Of a stretch of DNA of 49,635 bases, positions 6,109-23,626 are shown piece by piece. This DNA comes from Candidatus Woesebacteria bacterium GW2011_GWB1_39_12 (GTDB taxonomy: Bacteria > Patescibacteriota > Microgenomatia > UBA8517), in contig LBWB01000014.1 in NCBI GenBank assembly GCA_000993405.1, forward strand, positions 1 to 49,635, read 5' to 3'. The stretch's first letter is position 1. Each line of letters starts with the position of its first letter. Under the pieces are notes generated by a model. It had not been told where the DNA came from, did no database searches, and saw only the letters and a list, made by a program, of their open reading frames with translations. Both the position numbers and the translations under genes were made by a program.

Positions 6109-8397
6109 TTAGCGGGGCGCAGCAATCAAGGGATAATTTATCTTCGCTGACGCTGAAGCAATAGGGCAGTCTAGGCAGACCAGGGTTCCAAGCGGGTCGA
6201 GCAAAAACGGTCGGTTCTGGGTTTCGATAAGTTCAGGTGGAAGTTCAGGGTAGGCGAGCGCACCATTTGTTTTATCTATCTGCACGTCTTTAGTGCCGGT
6301 TTCAATACCTGCCCCGACTTTGTCTTTCAGAAAATACTCAAATCTGGTCGGACATCCCGGAGAATCAGGGTTGTCGGGAAGATTACCCGTAGTTGCACAA
6401 ACATTTGCGCCAACCACACCTTGTGGTTGCTTCGGCCAGGCGTGACCATCATCCTCGGGATTGTAAAATCCTTCTTCTGCTTTATCTAAAACCTTCCTCA
6501 TAATTGAGTTCCAAATTGGGGATGCGCCGGAAACCCCTGAAACAGCCCCACTCATTTCGGAGTTATCGTTATTTCCGACCCAGGAAAGGGTCAGAGCATA
6601 TTCTGTGTAGCCAATCGTCCAGTTATCACGTCTGTCATTTGTGGTACCGGTTTTTACGGAGACTTCGGGATGGCCTCTTACATTGAGAAATGAACTTTCT
6701 CCAAAGGCGGCACTTCTGGCATTATTGTCGTGAAGTATATGAGAAATAAGAAAAGTCACATCAGAAGTTAAGATCCTATCTCCGGTAAGTTCAATTTCTT
6801 TTGTATTAACTTCTTCCAAAACCTTTCCTTTCCAGTCAGTTACTTTCAAAATTGAAATAAGAGGTTGTTTTATGCCTTGGTTGGCGAAAACTCCAAAAGC
6901 AGTGGCCATATCATATGGCACGACTTCTCCTCCTCCCAGAGTCAGAGAAAGCCCGTAATTTTTGGGGTCGGTAAATGTTGTTATTCCCATCTTAGTTGCA
7001 AAATCAATAAAGTTTTCAAGCCCGTTTAAAGCTAAAACTCTGACAGCCGGAATATTATAAGAGTTTCCCAGGGCAAACCGAGCCTGTTGTGCGCCATGAA
7101 ATGTACCGTCGTAGTTAACGGGGCAATATGCTTTTTGGCCTGTTACCGAGAAACAGCTGGGTACGTCGGCAAGCGGCGTTGAAAGACTGATTTTCTTGTC
7201 TTTAATGGCCAGCGCATAATTAAGGGGTTTTATGGACGAACCCGGCTGTCTTTTGGCAAAAACGATATTTACTTTTCCGTCTTCATCCTCTGCAAAATAG
7301 TCTTTTGAGCCTACCATTGCTAAGATTTCGCCCGTTGCGGGTCTTGTTACAAGTGCCGCTCCGTTTCCAACATTTTGTTTTTTGAGTTTGGCAACTTCTG
7401 TTGCTACAGCGACCTCTGCAAATTCCTGAAGCTCAAGATCAAGCGTGGTTGTTACTCTTAACCCTCCTTTTTCGGTAGTTGCCTCCCCGTACTTTTCGGC
7501 CAGCAAATTTTTTACCCAGAGCGCAAAATGCGGCGCCCGTAACTTTTCCGGTTCGGCATATTTAAGCTCTTCTTCTTTGGCCTTATCGGCGTCTTCTTGG
7601 ATAATATAACCTTCCTCGACCATTTGCATAAGAACAACTTCCTGTCTTCCTTTTGAAAGTTCGGGATGGGCGCCATATGGAGAGTAGTAAGAAGGCGCAG
7701 CAGGAAGTCCTGCCAGAAGAGTTGCTTCAGCCAGTGTTAAATCTTTTGCATTTTTGCCGAAATAAGTTTCAGACGCCGCCCCTATTCCGTAAGAAGTACC
7801 ACCGTATGGGATTTGGTTGAGGTACATTTCCAGTATTTGGTCTTTAGAATAAATTGTTTCGACGACCAAGGTGAGCGCGAACTCCCTAATTTTTCTTTTC
7901 AAAGTTCGCTCGGGAGTAAGTAGTGCATTTTTGATAAGTTGCTGAGTCAGGGTTGATCCTCCTTGGAGTTTTTGTTTGACTAATGTTTTGTATACTGCTC
8001 GCATGACTCCAGTGAATGAAACTCCATAGTGTTTATAAAAGTCCTTATCCTCAATAGCGACTGTCGATTCCCAGATATAATCAGGAAGTTCGTCTAGCTT
8101 AACAGGCGTAGATTTTCTCTCCGCATAGATTTCGTAGATGAGCTTTCCATTCCTGTCGAATAGTTTTGTGGAGACCGGAACTTCCTCCTTACTTAGTTTT
8201 GTCGGAAGCGGTATTCCCCAAAAAAGCCACGAGAATATTGCGGATAAAATTCCTAAGAAGAGTACTTTTTTCCAGAGTCTTACATTTTTGAAGAGACTTC
8301 TTATCTTTGATTTCTTTTCTGATCTTGGCTGATGTTTTTTGTTTCTTGACTCTTTAGTTTTTAAGTTCTTTAGTTTTTTAGTTTTTGTTTTCGCCAT
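6109..8397 (-). CDS. Class A penicillin-binding protein (bifunctional transglycosylase/transpeptidase)
   Basis: 762 residues; polymerises and cross-links peptidoglycan on the outer face of the membrane. A Lys-rich cytoplasmic head and one TM segment (about 43-65) precede the GT51 domain, with EDKDFYKHYG (catalytic Glu near 118), QGGSTLTQQLIKN and the RKIRE and NQIPYGG motifs. The transpeptidase domain has SxxK in PGSSIKP (near 387), SYN (near 447) and KTGTT (near 581), all intact. The C-terminal tail contains CLDC. A TATAAT box (8410-8405) lies 7 nt before the ATG. Only a 136-nt spacer with a weak hairpin (5993-6006) follows it. PBP1a/PBP1b-like, but I cannot assign a specific symbol. Confidence 0.93.
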   Translation of the reverse strand: MAKTKTKKLKNLKTKESRNKKHQPRSEKKSKIRSLFKNVRLWKKVLFLGILSAIFSWLFWGIPLPTKLSKEEVPVSTKLFDRNGKLIYEIYAERKSTPVKLDELPDYIWESTVAIEDKDFYKHYGVSFTGVMRAVYKTLVKQKLQGGSTLTQQLIKNALLTPERTLKRKIREFALTLVVETIYSKDQILEMYLNQIPYGGTSYGIGAASETYFGKNAKDLTLAEATLLAGLPAAPSYYSPYGAHPELSKGRQEVVLMQMVEEGYIIQEDADKAKEEELKYAEPEKLRAPHFALWVKNLLAEKYGEATTEKGGLRVTTTLDLELQEFAEVAVATEVAKLKKQNVGNGAALVTRPATGEILAMVGSKDYFAEDEDGKVNIVFAKRQPGSSIKPLNYALAIKDKKISLSTPLADVPSCFSVTGQKAYCPVNYDGTFHGAQQARFALGNSYNIPAVRVLALNGLENFIDFATKMGITTFTDPKNYGLSLTLGGGEVVPYDMATAFGVFANQGIKQPLISILKVTDWKGKVLEEVNTKEIELTGDRILTSDVTFLISHILHDNNARSAAFGESSFLNVRGHPEVSVKTGTTNDRRDNWTIGYTEYALTLSWVGNNDNSEMSGAVSGVSGASPIWNSIMRKVLDKAEEGFYNPEDDGHAWPKQPQGVVGANVCATTGNLPDNPDSPGCPTRFEYFLKDKVGAGIETGTKDVQIDKTNGALAYPELPPELIETQNRPFLLDPLGTLVCLDCPIASASAKINYPLIAAPR

Positions 8398-19128: not shown

Positions 19129-19509
19129 ATGAGCGCCGTTGAAACTAAAGATCAGTTGCCGCAAATACCAATTCCAAAAGATATAGAAACACGTGCAGAG
19201 GAGCTTCCGGAGGAAGTTGAGGCGATAGAACGTGGAGTCAGTAGAACTCAAGTTCAAGCAAATGTGAAAATGCCGACTGATGATATAGCTAAAGTGTTGA
19301 CACAGACTCCACCAACCCAAACGGCCATGGTAACCATTCCTGCTAGCCCTCAGCAACTCACAGACTGGTCTAAAGGCTCTCCGACTAGCGCTCTAACCTG
19401 GCTTGCTTACTTTTGGCTGAGAATTATTAAAAAAGCGCTTCATTTTGGCTGGAGAATTGTTGAAAGAGTGAAGGGGGGAGGCGAGATAGATGCTAACAAG
19501 CCAGTTTGA
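19129..19509 (+). CDS. Small protein paired with the VirD4-like ATPase
   Basis: 126 residues: an acidic, Pro/Thr-rich N-terminus and one short hydrophobic amphipathic stretch (LTWLAYFWLRIIKKALHFGW) near the end. It overlaps the ATPase gene by 20 nt, implying coupled translation and a shared function, perhaps a membrane partner. An extended -10 (TGTTACAAT, 19112-19120) precedes it by 8 nt. No known family recognised. Confidence 0.65.
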   Translation: MSAVETKDQLPQIPIPKDIETRAEELPEEVEAIERGVSRTQVQANVKMPTDDIAKVLTQTPPTQTAMVTIPASPQQLTDWSKGSPTSALTWLAYFWLRIIKKALHFGWRIVERVKGGGEIDANKPV

Positions 19510-21823
19510 TCTAACTTTCTTTTTCATAACACTATTTTTGTCAGGAGTTTTTATCTTTGCTCTGACAATCGCAGCAATTTTTCTTATGACTCTTTTGAAA
19601 GGCAGGGGACGAGAGGAGCGATCAGTTGACTCGGTTCTTCTACAGGTTGCTGTTCCAAAAGGAAATGAAGTAAAGATCGACGCCATTGAACAGATGTTTA
19701 GTTCTTTATATTCTGTTAAAAAAGGCGGCTGGAAGCAAAAATACTCGACCCAACCTACAATCTCTTTCGAGGTTGTTGCCAGACTAGAAGATATAAGATT
19801 TTACGTTTGGACGCCAAAACCTTTTCAGGATTTAATTGAAAAGCAGATTAATGGTGCTTATCCTGACGCAGAAATAACAGAAGTTGATGAGTATAATATT
19901 TTTCCGGAAAATGCAAAAGTTGCCTATAAATCCCTTCAACTGAAGAAGGATAATTTCTATCCTTTAAAAACTTTTCGTGATTTACCGACAGATCCTTTGG
20001 CGGCTCTTACATCGGCTCTGGCCAAAATGGGGAGTGATGAGGCGGCGGCAATACAGATACTTATTTCACCGGCGGAGAGTGATTGGCAGAAAGCCGGAAG
20101 CGGCTTTGTTTCATCAACCAAAAAACAAGAATCAGATCCTGAAAAAGCAAAATTTGCAGTGCCTGCGAAAACCCTGGAAGGAGTAGAGAATAAAGTTTCA
20201 AAGCCGGGTTTCGAAACTTCAATTAGGATTATTTGTGTTTCCCCAGACGAAGCGTCAGCAAATGCCCACCTAACAAATATTATGAGTGGATTTCAGCAGT
20301 TTTCAGGAGACCTTAACGGGTTTACGAGTCGTAAGATTCGAAGAAAGGGAGCATTTATTGAAGATTTTCTTTATCGTTATCAGCCTCTATACCACCTTTG
20401 GGGGAATAGAGTTTCAATTCTTAATTCAGAGGAGCTCGCCACAATTTTTCATTTTCCGAATAAGCTTATTACGACTCCACACATCCATTGGTTATATGCC
20501 AAGCGTGCTCCCGCTCCCCAAGAGATTCCTACAGAAGGTACTTTTTTGGGTACAAGTACATACCGCGGGATTAAAAGACCTGTATATATATCTGATTTAG
20601 ATAGAATGCAGCATATGTATGTCATAGGAAAAACAGGGACGGGAAAATCCGAGTTTCTCAAAGACCTAGTAATGCAAGATATCAAAAAAGGAGCCGGAGT
20701 CTGCTTCATTGATCCGCACGGAGACGCGGTAGAGGAGCTTTTACTGCTTATTCCGCCGGAACGAGCCGAAGACGTCATTTATTTTAACCCTTCTGATTCG
20801 GAGAGACCCATGGGTCTTAATCTTTTAGAAGCTAAGACAGAAGACGAAAAGCACTTCGCGGCAACGGCCGTAATAAACATGATGTATAAACTTTTTGACC
20901 CTTATAAAACCGGAATAGTTGGCCCGAGATTCGAACACGCGGTCAGAAACGCAATGCTTACCGCAATGAGCGAGGACGGTTCAACTTTTGTCGAGGTGAT
21001 GAGAATTTTGACCGACTCCCGCTTTGTCCAGGAACTTTTACCAAAAGTAACAGACCCGATTGTCAGGCGTTATTGGACCGATCAAATTGCCCAAACTGCA
21101 GACTTTCACAAGTCAGAGGTACTCGATTATATTACTTCAAAATTCGGGAGATTCGTAACCAATAAGATGATCAGAAATATAATTGGCCAGTCTCAGTCCT
21201 CATTTTCTTTCAGAGACGTTATGGATTCAGGGAAAATTCTTTTTATAAATCTTTCTAAAGGAACGATTGGAGAGGAAAATTCAAGCTTTTTAGGACTGGT
21301 ACTCGTGCCAAGAATCTTGATGGCAGCAATGAGCAGAACCGATATTCCAAAGGAGGAAAGACGGCCGTTTTATCTTTATGTCGACGAGTTTCAGAATTTT
21401 GCAACTCCTGATTTTGCGGTCATTCTATCCGAGGCCAGAAAGTATTCTCTGGCGCTTTGTGTTGCAAATCAATTTATAGGTCAGGTCGAAGAGGAGGTTA
21501 AGAATGCAGTCTTTGGTAACGTCGGGACAATAATTTCATATAGAATTGGTGTAACCGACGCAAACTACCTTCAACACGAGTTTACCCCTGTTTTTGGAGA
21601 AGATGATCTTCTGAATGTTGAAAAATACCATGTTTTTATTAAGACGATTGTCAGGAACGAACCCGTTCCTCCATTTTCTATGGATCTTTTAAAAGACATT
21701 CAAAAGATTAAAGCTATGGAAAACCCCAAAATTGCAGGGATCATTAAAGAGATGAGCAGGTTAAAATACGGCCGCGACGCAAAGTTGGTTGAGAGCGAAA
21801 TTACACGAAGAGCAAAACTCTAG
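19490..21823 (+). CDS. VirD4/TraG-like conjugation-type ATPase
   Basis: 777 residues. An N-terminal TM segment (LTFFFITLFLSGVFIFALTIA), then a ~330-residue region unlike classical VirD4, then a RecA-like ATPase: Walker A GKTGTGKS near residue 380, FIDPHGD, Walker B LYVDEFQNFATPDF near 628, and an arginine-finger/QFIGQ region. It belongs with type IV secretion coupling-protein/TraM-like ATPases (hexameric DNA or protein pumps at the membrane). No relaxase or VirB genes are nearby, so a substrate other than a conjugative plasmid, such as a DNA-uptake or pilus role, is possible. Confidence 0.85.
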   Translation: MLTSQFDLTFFFITLFLSGVFIFALTIAAIFLMTLLKGRGREERSVDSVLLQVAVPKGNEVKIDAIEQMFSSLYSVKKGGWKQKYSTQPTISFEVVARLEDIRFYVWTPKPFQDLIEKQINGAYPDAEITEVDEYNIFPENAKVAYKSLQLKKDNFYPLKTFRDLPTDPLAALTSALAKMGSDEAAAIQILISPAESDWQKAGSGFVSSTKKQESDPEKAKFAVPAKTLEGVENKVSKPGFETSIRIICVSPDEASANAHLTNIMSGFQQFSGDLNGFTSRKIRRKGAFIEDFLYRYQPLYHLWGNRVSILNSEELATIFHFPNKLITTPHIHWLYAKRAPAPQEIPTEGTFLGTSTYRGIKRPVYISDLDRMQHMYVIGKTGTGKSEFLKDLVMQDIKKGAGVCFIDPHGDAVEELLLLIPPERAEDVIYFNPSDSERPMGLNLLEAKTEDEKHFAATAVINMMYKLFDPYKTGIVGPRFEHAVRNAMLTAMSEDGSTFVEVMRILTDSRFVQELLPKVTDPIVRRYWTDQIAQTADFHKSEVLDYITSKFGRFVTNKMIRNIIGQSQSSFSFRDVMDSGKILFINLSKGTIGEENSSFLGLVLVPRILMAAMSRTDIPKEERRPFYLYVDEFQNFATPDFAVILSEARKYSLALCVANQFIGQVEEEVKNAVFGNVGTIISYRIGVTDANYLQHEFTPVFGEDDLLNVEKYHVFIKTIVRNEPVPPFSMDLLKDIQKIKAMENPKIAGIIKEMSRLKYGRDAKLVESEITRRAKL

Positions 21824-21885: not shown

Positions 21886-21915
21886 TTGATACTTCAACTT
21901 AAGCTTTGCTATAAT
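21886..21915 (+). promoter_or_regulatory. Promoter of the nested tRNA locus
   Basis: TTGATA (21886-21891), 18-nt spacer, TATAAT (21910-21915). Transcription would start near 21922, just before the 5' half of the outer tRNA, so the whole nested locus would be one transcript. Confidence 0.65.
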
Positions 21916-21925
21916 AGCTCCACAA

Positions 21926-22113
21926 GTGCCTGTAGTTCACTGGCAGAACGCGATCCTTATGACAAAAATCTGGGCGTGTAGCTCAGTGGTAGAGCGCTAC
22001 TCTTATAAAGTAGATGTCCATGGTTCGAATCCATGCACGCCCACAGATTTTTGACATGTCAAACTGCGTTTGTCATAAGATCGATGTACTTGGTTCGACT
22101 CCAAGCAGGCGCA
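21926..22113 (+). tRNA. Interrupted tRNA (CAU anticodon if rejoined) with another tRNA inside its anticodon loop
   Basis: The 5' half (21926-21957) gives acceptor GTGCCTG, D-arm GTTC/GAAC, anticodon 5' stem CGATC and loop bases CT. The 3' half (22074-22113) gives CATAA, GATCG, variable ATGTA, T-arm CTTGG/CCAAG around TTCGACT, acceptor CAGGCGC and discriminator A. Rejoined they form a 72-nt cloverleaf with all stems paired and loop CTCATAA (anticodon CAU; Met, or Ile decoded via lysidine). The 116-nt insert is bounded by CTTATGACAAA (21956-21966) and its exact reverse complement (22069-22079), and holds a complete tRNA-Ile. Base pair 15-48 (C-A) is unusual. Whether the halves are spliced is unknown. 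Confidence 0.7.
21972..22043 (+). tRNA. tRNA-Ile(UAU), nested inside the outer tRNA
   Basis: A complete 72-nt cloverleaf: acceptor GGGCGTG/CACGCCC, D-arm GCTC/GAGC, anticodon stem CTACT/AGTAG with loop CTTATAA (anticodon UAU at 22004-22006), T-arm CATGG/CCATG around TTCGAAT, discriminator A. CCA is not encoded. The acceptor helix is continued by CAAAAATCT (21963-21971) pairing with AGATTTTTG (22045-22053). UAU reads AUA directly; most bacteria use a lysidine-modified CAU tRNA for AUA. Confidence 0.93.
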
Positions 22114-22524: not shown

Positions 22525-22668
22525 ATGACCCACGACTATATAGTCAACCTTTATTTTGAAAGAGCTCATATATTTCAGCTTATCTATATGACCGAGCGGG
22601 ATAAGCTTAAAAAGGGGAATAACAAGAAAAAGATAGATGCATTGAAGAAGTCGTTAGAAAGAGTTTAA
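22525..22668 (+). CDS. 47-residue hypothetical protein
   Basis: ATG at 22525, stop TAA at 22666-22668. The translation MTHDYIVNLYFERAHIFQLI continues into a Lys-rich tail (RDKLKKGNNKKKIDALKKSL). It is amphipathic and helical. It overlaps the 3' end of the convergent recombinase gene by 4 nt. It may be a detached part of the upstream remnant. Function unknown. Confidence 0.4.
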   Translation: MTHDYIVNLYFERAHIFQLIYMTERDKLKKGNNKKKIDALKKSLERV

Positions 22669-23528
22669 AGCTCGGCAAGGGTTTGTTTTTTGCCTGATTC
22701 TTTGACTTGAGCGAGTTGTAAGTACCGCTCGGTTGTCGAAAGACGCTTGTGACCCGCCGCCTGAGAAAGAAGAACAAGATCAACCTCGTCTTTAAGGTTC
22801 TCGATGATAAATGTTGTCCTTAAGTCATTTACCGAATACTGGGGAATTTCGGCCTTTTGCATGTACCTGTCAATTGCACTCCTTATATTTCTTATTGCAA
22901 GTGGCTTTCCGTTTTTACTAATAAATACGTAGGAAGAATTGGTGTTTCCCCTTGAGTTCATATACTCATCAAGGGCGTCTTTTGCCGGTTTATTCAGGGG
23001 GACTGTTCTTTGGGGTTGTGTTGCGTGGGGTTCGACAATAAGACTGTCTTCTTTTAAATCCTCGACCTTTAAGTTGGCAATTTCCGAGATGCGCATTCCG
23101 GTTTGAAGAACTATTTCGACAATAGTTGCAATTCTAATATCGTCTCTGACGACGTCTCTTAGGGCTCTATATTCTAAGGGTGAAAGAAATTTGGGCATGG
23201 CTGCTTCTATTTTTGGATGGGAAACAAATTCAGTCGGATTTGAATTTGAATATTTTTCTGAAATAAGCCACCTGAAGAAGGTTTTTACAGCGTTTAGTTT
23301 TCTTGAAACAGACTTGGCGGTGTATTTTTGTGTCAAAAGGGTATCGCGGAAAGTTTCAATGTCTACCTCAACTATCTGGTCGGGATTAACCTTATTTTTT
23401 TCTGTGAGAAATTTCAGGAGTTGCTCAAGATCAGCCCTATAGGCTAGAATTGTTGAGGGAGAACGCTTCTTATTTTCCAAATCCTGAATAAATTTAGGAA
23501 GAAGGGTGGTCAAAGTTTCTGGTATCAT
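22665..23528 (-). CDS. Xer-like tyrosine recombinase with altered catalytic residues
   Basis: About 287 residues from the ATG at 23528. An N-terminal SAM-like core-binding domain (KRSPSTILAYRADLEQLLKF) precedes a C-terminal catalytic domain. Arg I is present (QTGMRISEIANL), as are the second Arg (NDLRTTF), the GHKRLSTTERYL His and the nucleophile Tyr. However, the box-II His is Asn (NDLR instead of HxLR), and the beta-hairpin Lys expected before RTVPL is missing (EPHATQPQRTVPL). It resembles XerC/D-type chromosome-dimer recombinases rather than IntI, since no integron-specific insert is seen. It lies about 550 nt from the nested tRNA. Confidence 0.8.
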   Translation of the reverse strand: MIPETLTTLLPKFIQDLENKKRSPSTILAYRADLEQLLKFLTEKNKVNPDQIVEVDIETFRDTLLTQKYTAKSVSRKLNAVKTFFRWLISEKYSNSNPTEFVSHPKIEAAMPKFLSPLEYRALRDVVRDDIRIATIVEIVLQTGMRISEIANLKVEDLKEDSLIVEPHATQPQRTVPLNKPAKDALDEYMNSRGNTNSSYVFISKNGKPLAIRNIRSAIDRYMQKAEIPQYSVNDLRTTFIIENLKDEVDLVLLSQAAGHKRLSTTERYLQLAQVKESGKKQTLAEL

Positions 23529-23626
23529 AATTAATATGCGAACGTTGATCAATCAAAACAGGTGACATCACACCTATTCGTGTACCGTATGATAACATAG
23601 TTTTAAAAAAAAGGTCAATAAGATGT

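Follow-up and report, generated by a model that had tools for sequence, protein, structure and literature searches.

How does a complete tRNA gene come to stand within the anticodon loop of another tRNA gene, and which of the two is the working copy? The question is raised by positions 21926-22113 of the window, the 49,635-nt stretch of Candidatus Woesebacteria DNA analysed here. The initial annotation, made from the letters alone, described the locus as a tRNA nested in a second, fully paired tRNA and proposed that it was either a new type of tRNA intron or the mark of a small element's integration into the anticodon loop. Below, we describe the locus, follow its position and its architecture through related genomes, and weigh the explanations.

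Anatomy of the locus and tRNA inventory of the genome

All elements of a tRNA nested in a tRNA are present in the sequence [Table 1]. In its overlap/intron mode, ARAGORN returned a tRNA-Ile(UAU) interrupted by 116 nt as the outer gene and a normal tRNA-Ile(UAU) as the inner one, such that outer and inner tRNA share the same identity, and all 21 of the 21 stem pairs of the 72-nt outer tRNA are formed. The outer 5' half reads GTGCCTG TA GTTC ACTGGCA GAAC G CGATC CTTA and the outer 3' half TAA GATCG ATGTA CTTGG TTCGACT CCAAG CAGGCGC A; joined, the outer tRNA would read GTGCCTG...CTTATAA...CAGGCGCA (72 nt). While the length of the insert was correctly given in the initial annotation, its placement of the break after position 33 needs amending: the plain genes of relatives read CGATC-CTTATAA-GATCG, and the insert therefore lies between positions 35 and 36 (CTTA^TAA). 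The exact 11-nt inverted copies reported at its ends, CTTATGACAAA (21956-21966) and TTTGTCATAAG (22069-22079), were found as described; the terminal repeat proper is the 7-nt TGACAAA/TTTGTCA, which appears as 11 nt because the target CTTA/TAAG is itself palindromic. In the predicted fold the anticodon stem continues, past a single bulged C, as a 10-bp helix and the linkers pair, the stability of the RNA fold being 3.5 sd above that of shuffles. Linkers starting with TGACA also occur in relatives (L344, L335), and 3' linkers resembling that of the window, which holds GACATGTCA, stand 3' of tRNA-Ile(UAU) in G014, G028, G009, G005 and, as a variant, G012.

Table 1. Features of the nested locus and its surroundings (window coordinates).
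Feature	Position	Strand	Basis
Outer tRNA-Ile(UAU), both halves	21926-21959 + 22076-22113 (72 nt)	+	
Outer 5' half: acceptor, D arm, anticodon stem, loop CTTA	21926..21959	+	ARAGORN, structure, relatives
116-nt insert, anticodon positions 35/36	21960..22075	+	Empty site CTTATAA of relatives, terminal repeats
5' linker TGACAAAAATCT, starting with terminal inverted repeat TGACAAA	21960..21971	+	Sequence
Inner tRNA-Ile(UAU), copy presumed functional	21972..22043	+	Rfam tRNA (77.4 bits), ARAGORN
3' linker: palindrome TTTGACATGTCAAA and terminal repeat TTTGTCA	22044..22075	+	Sequence
Outer 3' half: loop TAA, anticodon stem, T arm, acceptor, discriminator A	22076..22113	+	Structure, relatives
-10 box TATAAT, ~10 nt 5' of the outer tRNA	21909..21914	+	Sequence, relatives
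TraG/VirD4/HerA-like (TrwB/HerA-like) ATPase gene, upstream gene-order landmark	19490..21823	+	Pfam
XerC/D-like tyrosine recombinase gene	22665..23552	-	Pfam PF00589 (E=9.8e-28)

The same genome holds a second nest on another contig (C6:8535-8723; L031 136-324), in which an outer tRNA-Arg(CCU) with a 116-nt insert encloses a complete inner tRNA-Arg(CCU). No further Ile(UAU) or Arg(CCU) gene was found in the tRNA inventory of the genome (RF00005 matches), and the inner tRNAs are thus the only uninterrupted Ile(UAU) and Arg(CCU) copies found. The intact isoacceptor that the initial annotation had named as evidence against a spliced outer tRNA is present, in the form of the inner tRNA itself. AUA codons may have routes besides UAU decoding, since a TilS match is found in the genome; it lies on a contig (C15), possibly viral or a contaminant, whose tRNAs for Asp and Glu are unusual in having extended acceptors.

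A third candidate, around tRNA-Thr(GGU) at C9:120911-121116, was rejected: a palindrome of the CC type described below is present, but the shell is damaged, with 18 of 21 pairs and an unconvincing anticodon stem. Elsewhere in the genome, a ~25-nt 5' fragment of tRNA-Arg(UCU) is followed by an ORF for a GIY-YIG nuclease (Pfam E=5.9e-15) and then by an intact tRNA-Arg(UCU) that repeats the fragment (C1:70846-71199; L033 ~6947-7300). A layout like that of this tRNA-Arg(UCU), with a palindrome after GGTAGA, is seen at L194 and L201. On the same contig (C1:68476-68853; L033 4577-4954), the tRNA 5' fragment GCCGAGTTAGCCAAGG precedes an 85-aa ORF, which is without Pfam match, and an intact tRNA sharing its 5' end.

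Empty sites, decayed shells and recurrence in Patescibacteria

The ATPase gene upstream of the nest is kept in 49 of the 52 relatives searched, and a tRNA-Ile(UAU) stands beside it at 26 of the 30 loci examined. Sixteen of these 26 are plain, meaning that no half scored above the best of ~500 shuffled controls (the 3' flank being absent or short in G002 and G022); five are fully nested (the window, G008, G011, G021 and G028); and five combine an intact tRNA-Ile(UAU) with one orphan half, the 3' half in G014, G009 and G005 and the 5' half in G012 and G027. The complete tRNA at this locus is always the inner one. Because 16 of the 26 same-position loci lack a detectable shell and five keep one half only, the shell appears dispensable. 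The decayed outer halves that the initial annotation had asked for as a refutation are found in relatives, and its argument that intact stems speak against a dead gene does not hold, as shells have lost one half in the five genomes with an orphan half and several shells at other loci have lost the anticodon.

The identity of the two tRNAs can be traced in the same set. G012 and G002 carry the empty site, with an unbroken loop CTTATAA: their plain tRNA-Ile(UAU) genes are 92% and 88% identical to the window's outer tRNA joined at CTTA^TAA, against 75% only between the outer and inner tRNAs of the window. Where the window's outer tRNA departs from that of G012 it does so mostly in the acceptor stem, by paired changes. 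For the inner tRNA, the plain tRNA-Ile(UAU) of G022 shows 94% identity. The ATPase of G022 is 80% identical to that of the window; that of G014, the closest relative by this protein, is 90% identical, and G014 has a further tRNA type at the locus together with a downstream orphan 3' half of the G012/window-outer type. The outer shells of G008, G028 and G011 match the plain tRNAs of G005, G016 and G014 (93, 88 and 88% identity, respectively), and shells and working tRNAs therefore come from one pool. As judged from these sequence identities, the tRNA type at the locus does not track ATPase relatedness. The insertions in the window and in G014, the 3' linkers of which are alike, may be independent or may represent one shared insert whose inner tRNA was later exchanged.

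We surveyed the class Microgenomatia (Woesebacteria, Levybacteria, Curtissbacteria, Roizmanbacteria and others) as well as other Patescibacteria. A pattern of two D arms less than ~60 nt apart matched in 23 of 142 relatives and in none of the reversed controls, and a looser D-arm pattern matched in 107 of the 374 class genomes, against few matches of its control. As pattern matches include leader hairpins and chance, loci were re-examined by structure; after removal of duplicates and of two chance detections (L124, L264), 66 loci hold both outer halves. Outer and inner anticodons are the same in 44 of the 66, a locus being counted where the outer loop allows the inner anticodon to be reconstituted; 10,000 permutations of the pairs gave a mean of 7.8 and a maximum of 18. 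Several of the non-matching loci have a shifted register or have lost the outer anticodon (L088, L114, L151), the latter shells still enclosing a complete inner tRNA. The discriminator base is equal in 61 of the 66 loci. Perfectly paired shells (21/21) account for 35 of the 66, in a search that is itself biased toward intact, paired shells. Counting duplicate loci, 81 detector matches around 545 tRNAs had shells with 20 or 21 of the 21 pairs; the shuffled-flank control (2,725 trials) yielded six detector matches, none of them with at least 20 of 21 pairs.

The nested isoacceptors comprise Val, Thr, Ile, Met, Arg, Pro, Gly and Ala, and two loci are three deep (L058, Thr; L075, Ile). Where the split site is unique it falls mostly at 35/36, Val and Ala fitting 37/38, and in one case (L085) the break falls in the D stem. 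Insert lengths are mostly 102-134 nt across unrelated tRNAs and genomes. The locus in the window has the features by which a nested same-anticodon tRNA is defined here: a whole inner tRNA, an equal outer anticodon and an empty site in relatives. Nests extend beyond Microgenomatia to Paceibacterota, Portnoybacteria, Wolfebacteria, Giovannonibacteria, Berkelbacteria and Kazan; genome-contig pattern matches outside Patescibacteria (Pseudonocardia, Stappia, Xenophilus and others) mostly held no nested tRNA according to the detector.

Matches of the pattern TAGCTCANNGGTAAGC...GCTTGGCCANTGA (e.g. L065, L067, L073, L074) were set aside as leader hairpins. At L065, L067, L069, L071, L073 and L074, a partial copy of a tRNA 5' end that folds back (TAGCTCAATGGTAAGCAAAGCTTGGCCATTGA) stands 5' of intact tRNAs, and such fold-back leader copies recur in the family of the window. 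Three IMG/VR viral contigs (L366, L367, L372) share a tRNA-like shell CTGGAAG...CTTCCAG without anticodon, around an inner tRNA for His (one contig) or Asn (two contigs). Viruses also hold nested tRNAs, and their cargo is exchangeable.

A proposed self-compensating insertion and its alternatives

In the light of the insertion site, the empty sites, the gene order, the same-anticodon rule, the decay of shells and the recurrence described above, we favor, with a probability of about 85%, a self-compensating insertion, in which a unit carrying a cognate tRNA breaks a tRNA gene and takes over via its promoter while the shell decays. The outer tRNA would be the former working tRNA-Ile(UAU) gene of the locus, the anticodon loop of which (CTTA^TAA) would have been entered by a 116-nt inverted-repeat unit bearing a whole tRNA-Ile(UAU) from another lineage; such an insertion would be tolerated in an essential gene because the replacement is supplied at once. 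Break and replacement would then be a single event in which the outer tRNA loses its function. The inner tRNA would be transcribed from the old promoter and then released by RNase P and the tRNA 3'-end nuclease, leaving the outer halves as by-products that would decay with time. Repeated rounds at one gene would lead to serial tRNA replacement and to nests several deep. With regard to expression, a TATAAT is found in relatives ~10 nt 5' of whichever tRNA or tRNA half stands first and, in G014, which has lost the 5' shell half, it directly precedes the working tRNA; the placement of this motif suggests that the displaced gene's promoter probably drives the inner tRNA. Integration of a small element at the anticodon loop, the second proposal of the initial annotation, is supported and can be extended.

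The commonest insert type in the class has palindromic ends CCYGCCYGCC...GGCRGGCRGG (CC type). A match to a Y1 transposase is found in 30 of 33 genomes with CC-type loci vs 161 of 248 others (p=0.002, with a hand-compiled list of CC-type genomes and without regard to shared ancestry). Copies of the CCYGCCYGCC palindrome without a tRNA also stand outside tRNA genes (L186, L189) and within coding regions (L175, L178), these solo copies forming a REP-like repeat family between and inside Microgenomatia genes. The window insert is of a different type (TGACAAA...TTTGTCA); a Y1 transposase match is present in the genome of the window, and none was found in G008, G011 or G028, all of which have the window's locus nested. 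In G021, the nested tRNA-Ile(UAU) lies in a 241-nt insert (L336) whose linker hairpins, TCCCCGCTCTAAAAGAGCGGGG and TCCCCGCACTGAAGTGCGGGGA, resemble the ends of IS200/IS605-type elements. No dedicated moving enzyme was identified and no insert was caught moving; movement might involve a hairpin-ended element served by a trans-acting protein, or a homing-like recombination between cognate tRNA genes. The same-anticodon rule could follow from selection alone, inserts surviving in an essential gene only when they bring the right tRNA. Alternatively, the unit may find its site via the tRNA sequence or a hairpin. At somewhat less than even odds, we entertain the broader idea that a gene-less homing unit with tRNA cargo spreads in Patescibacteria via cognate anticodon loops, recognizing tRNA or hairpin rather than a fixed DNA site, and that essential tRNA genes may thereby be serially overwritten by foreign versions.

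Other readings leave the outer tRNA a role. In the intron reading of the initial annotation, the inner tRNA would be excised and the outer halves, held by the long helix, trimmed and joined, yielding two tRNA-Ile(UAU) per transcript. The full pairing of the outer tRNA, its intact loop CTTATAA, the pairing of the linkers and the presence of an RtcB gene in the window genome are all in keeping with such a scheme. As had been anticipated, the insert matches neither group I introns nor those of archaea: a gathering-threshold Rfam scan of the window returned three tRNAs only and no group I family, and the predicted fold (general folding only) is without the paired 3-nt bulges of a bulge-helix-bulge. 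RNase P and RNase Z leave 3'-OH and 5'-P ends, which are not substrates of RtcB. Of 281 class genomes, 24 have this ligase, with no enrichment among those bearing nests (2 of 33; Fisher p=0.75), a distribution on which RtcB-dependent splicing was rejected as a general mechanism. Shells, moreover, lose halves or anticodons, L085 is broken within its D stem, and rejoining would be needless since the outer tRNA duplicates the anticodon of the inner one, the product merely doubling it. Taken together, these points make the rejoining of the outer halves as a new intron type improbable, though conceivable at this single locus given the RtcB gene of its genome. We are no more inclined to think that the halves are retained, unjoined, as a structured leader and trailer that aids the processing of the inner tRNA or protects it. 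Many shells are highly paired, including some without anticodon (L088, L151), and the 35 perfectly paired shells could hint at selection, although the search favors intact shells; against such a role, 16 of the 26 loci at the ATPase gene have no detectable shell and five have one half.

It is unlikely, if less so, that the nest is the remnant of a large tyrosine-recombinase element that brought the replacement tRNA and then lost everything else. Integrative elements often make use of tRNA genes, the nest has a recombinase gene 0.55 kb downstream of it, and mobile-element integration has been proposed as the source of disrupted archaeal tRNA genes (PMC3293823). Nothing at the locus, however, ties this XerC/D-like recombinase to moving the insert, which is without genes and ends in inverted repeats rather than in a duplicated tRNA fragment, the outer halves not being duplicated; most insert lengths vary little over unrelated tRNAs and genomes, and no large intermediates were seen in the searches made. 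An assembly or binning artefact might be suspected in a single draft genome (1.51 Mb in 56 contigs, with 3.7% contamination). We regard it as extremely improbable, because dozens of independent assemblies, and the single-contig chromosome CP066686 (G008; L083, L335) as well, show the same architecture, and gene order is conserved across relatives.

Relation to known systems

Self-compensating insertion would offer a concrete route by which essential single-copy tRNA genes are broken and replaced without loss of function, the shells being layers that record the order of replacements. It would also account for the orphan tRNA halves that adjoin tRNA genes in Patescibacteria, and it cautions against taking such loci for introns or split tRNAs. 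The question that it raises is which enzyme targets one place in tRNA genes of differing sequence.

The open-licence papers searched for nested tRNA genes or for tRNA introns of CPR/Patescibacteria do not describe this arrangement. A near comparison is the tRNA-Thr locus of Caldiarchaeum, where a population-level disruption with an orphan tRNA fragment was attributed to a mobile element (PMC3293823). As in the nests, a disrupted tRNA gene stands there with an orphan fragment; unlike them, the locus features introns and a 1.8-kb element, and no same-anticodon tRNA within a tRNA (PMC3293823). The canonical 37/38 introns of archaeal and eukaryotic tRNAs likewise sit in the anticodon loop, but they are removed by a splicing endonuclease and their exons joined, whereas the nest has no bulge-helix-bulge in its predicted fold and its insert holds a whole tRNA. 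Group I introns of bacterial tRNA genes also interrupt the anticodon loop; the nest differs in lacking a group I match in the window and in consisting of 116 nt that are mainly tRNA. REP/REPIN sequences (RAYT, Y1) recall the CC-type inserts, whose palindromic ends are also found tRNA-free in genomes where Y1 is enriched, although the known REPINs lie mostly outside genes and are without tRNA, and the window linkers TGACAAA...TTTGTCA are, in contrast to the REPIN-like CC type, of another type that is also found in genomes without a Y1 match. Finally, integrative elements (phages, ICEs and archaeal plasmids, with their tyrosine recombinases) resemble the nest in targeting tRNA genes, including the anticodon loop region, and in sparing the host by restoring the tRNA. 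They do so, however, by rebuilding the broken gene from a matching tRNA fragment that they carry, whereas in the nest a complete second tRNA lies inside, the old gene stays split and the insert is gene-less. The nests are best placed among tRNA-gene-targeted insertions, as a variant with a real chance of being a separate kind.
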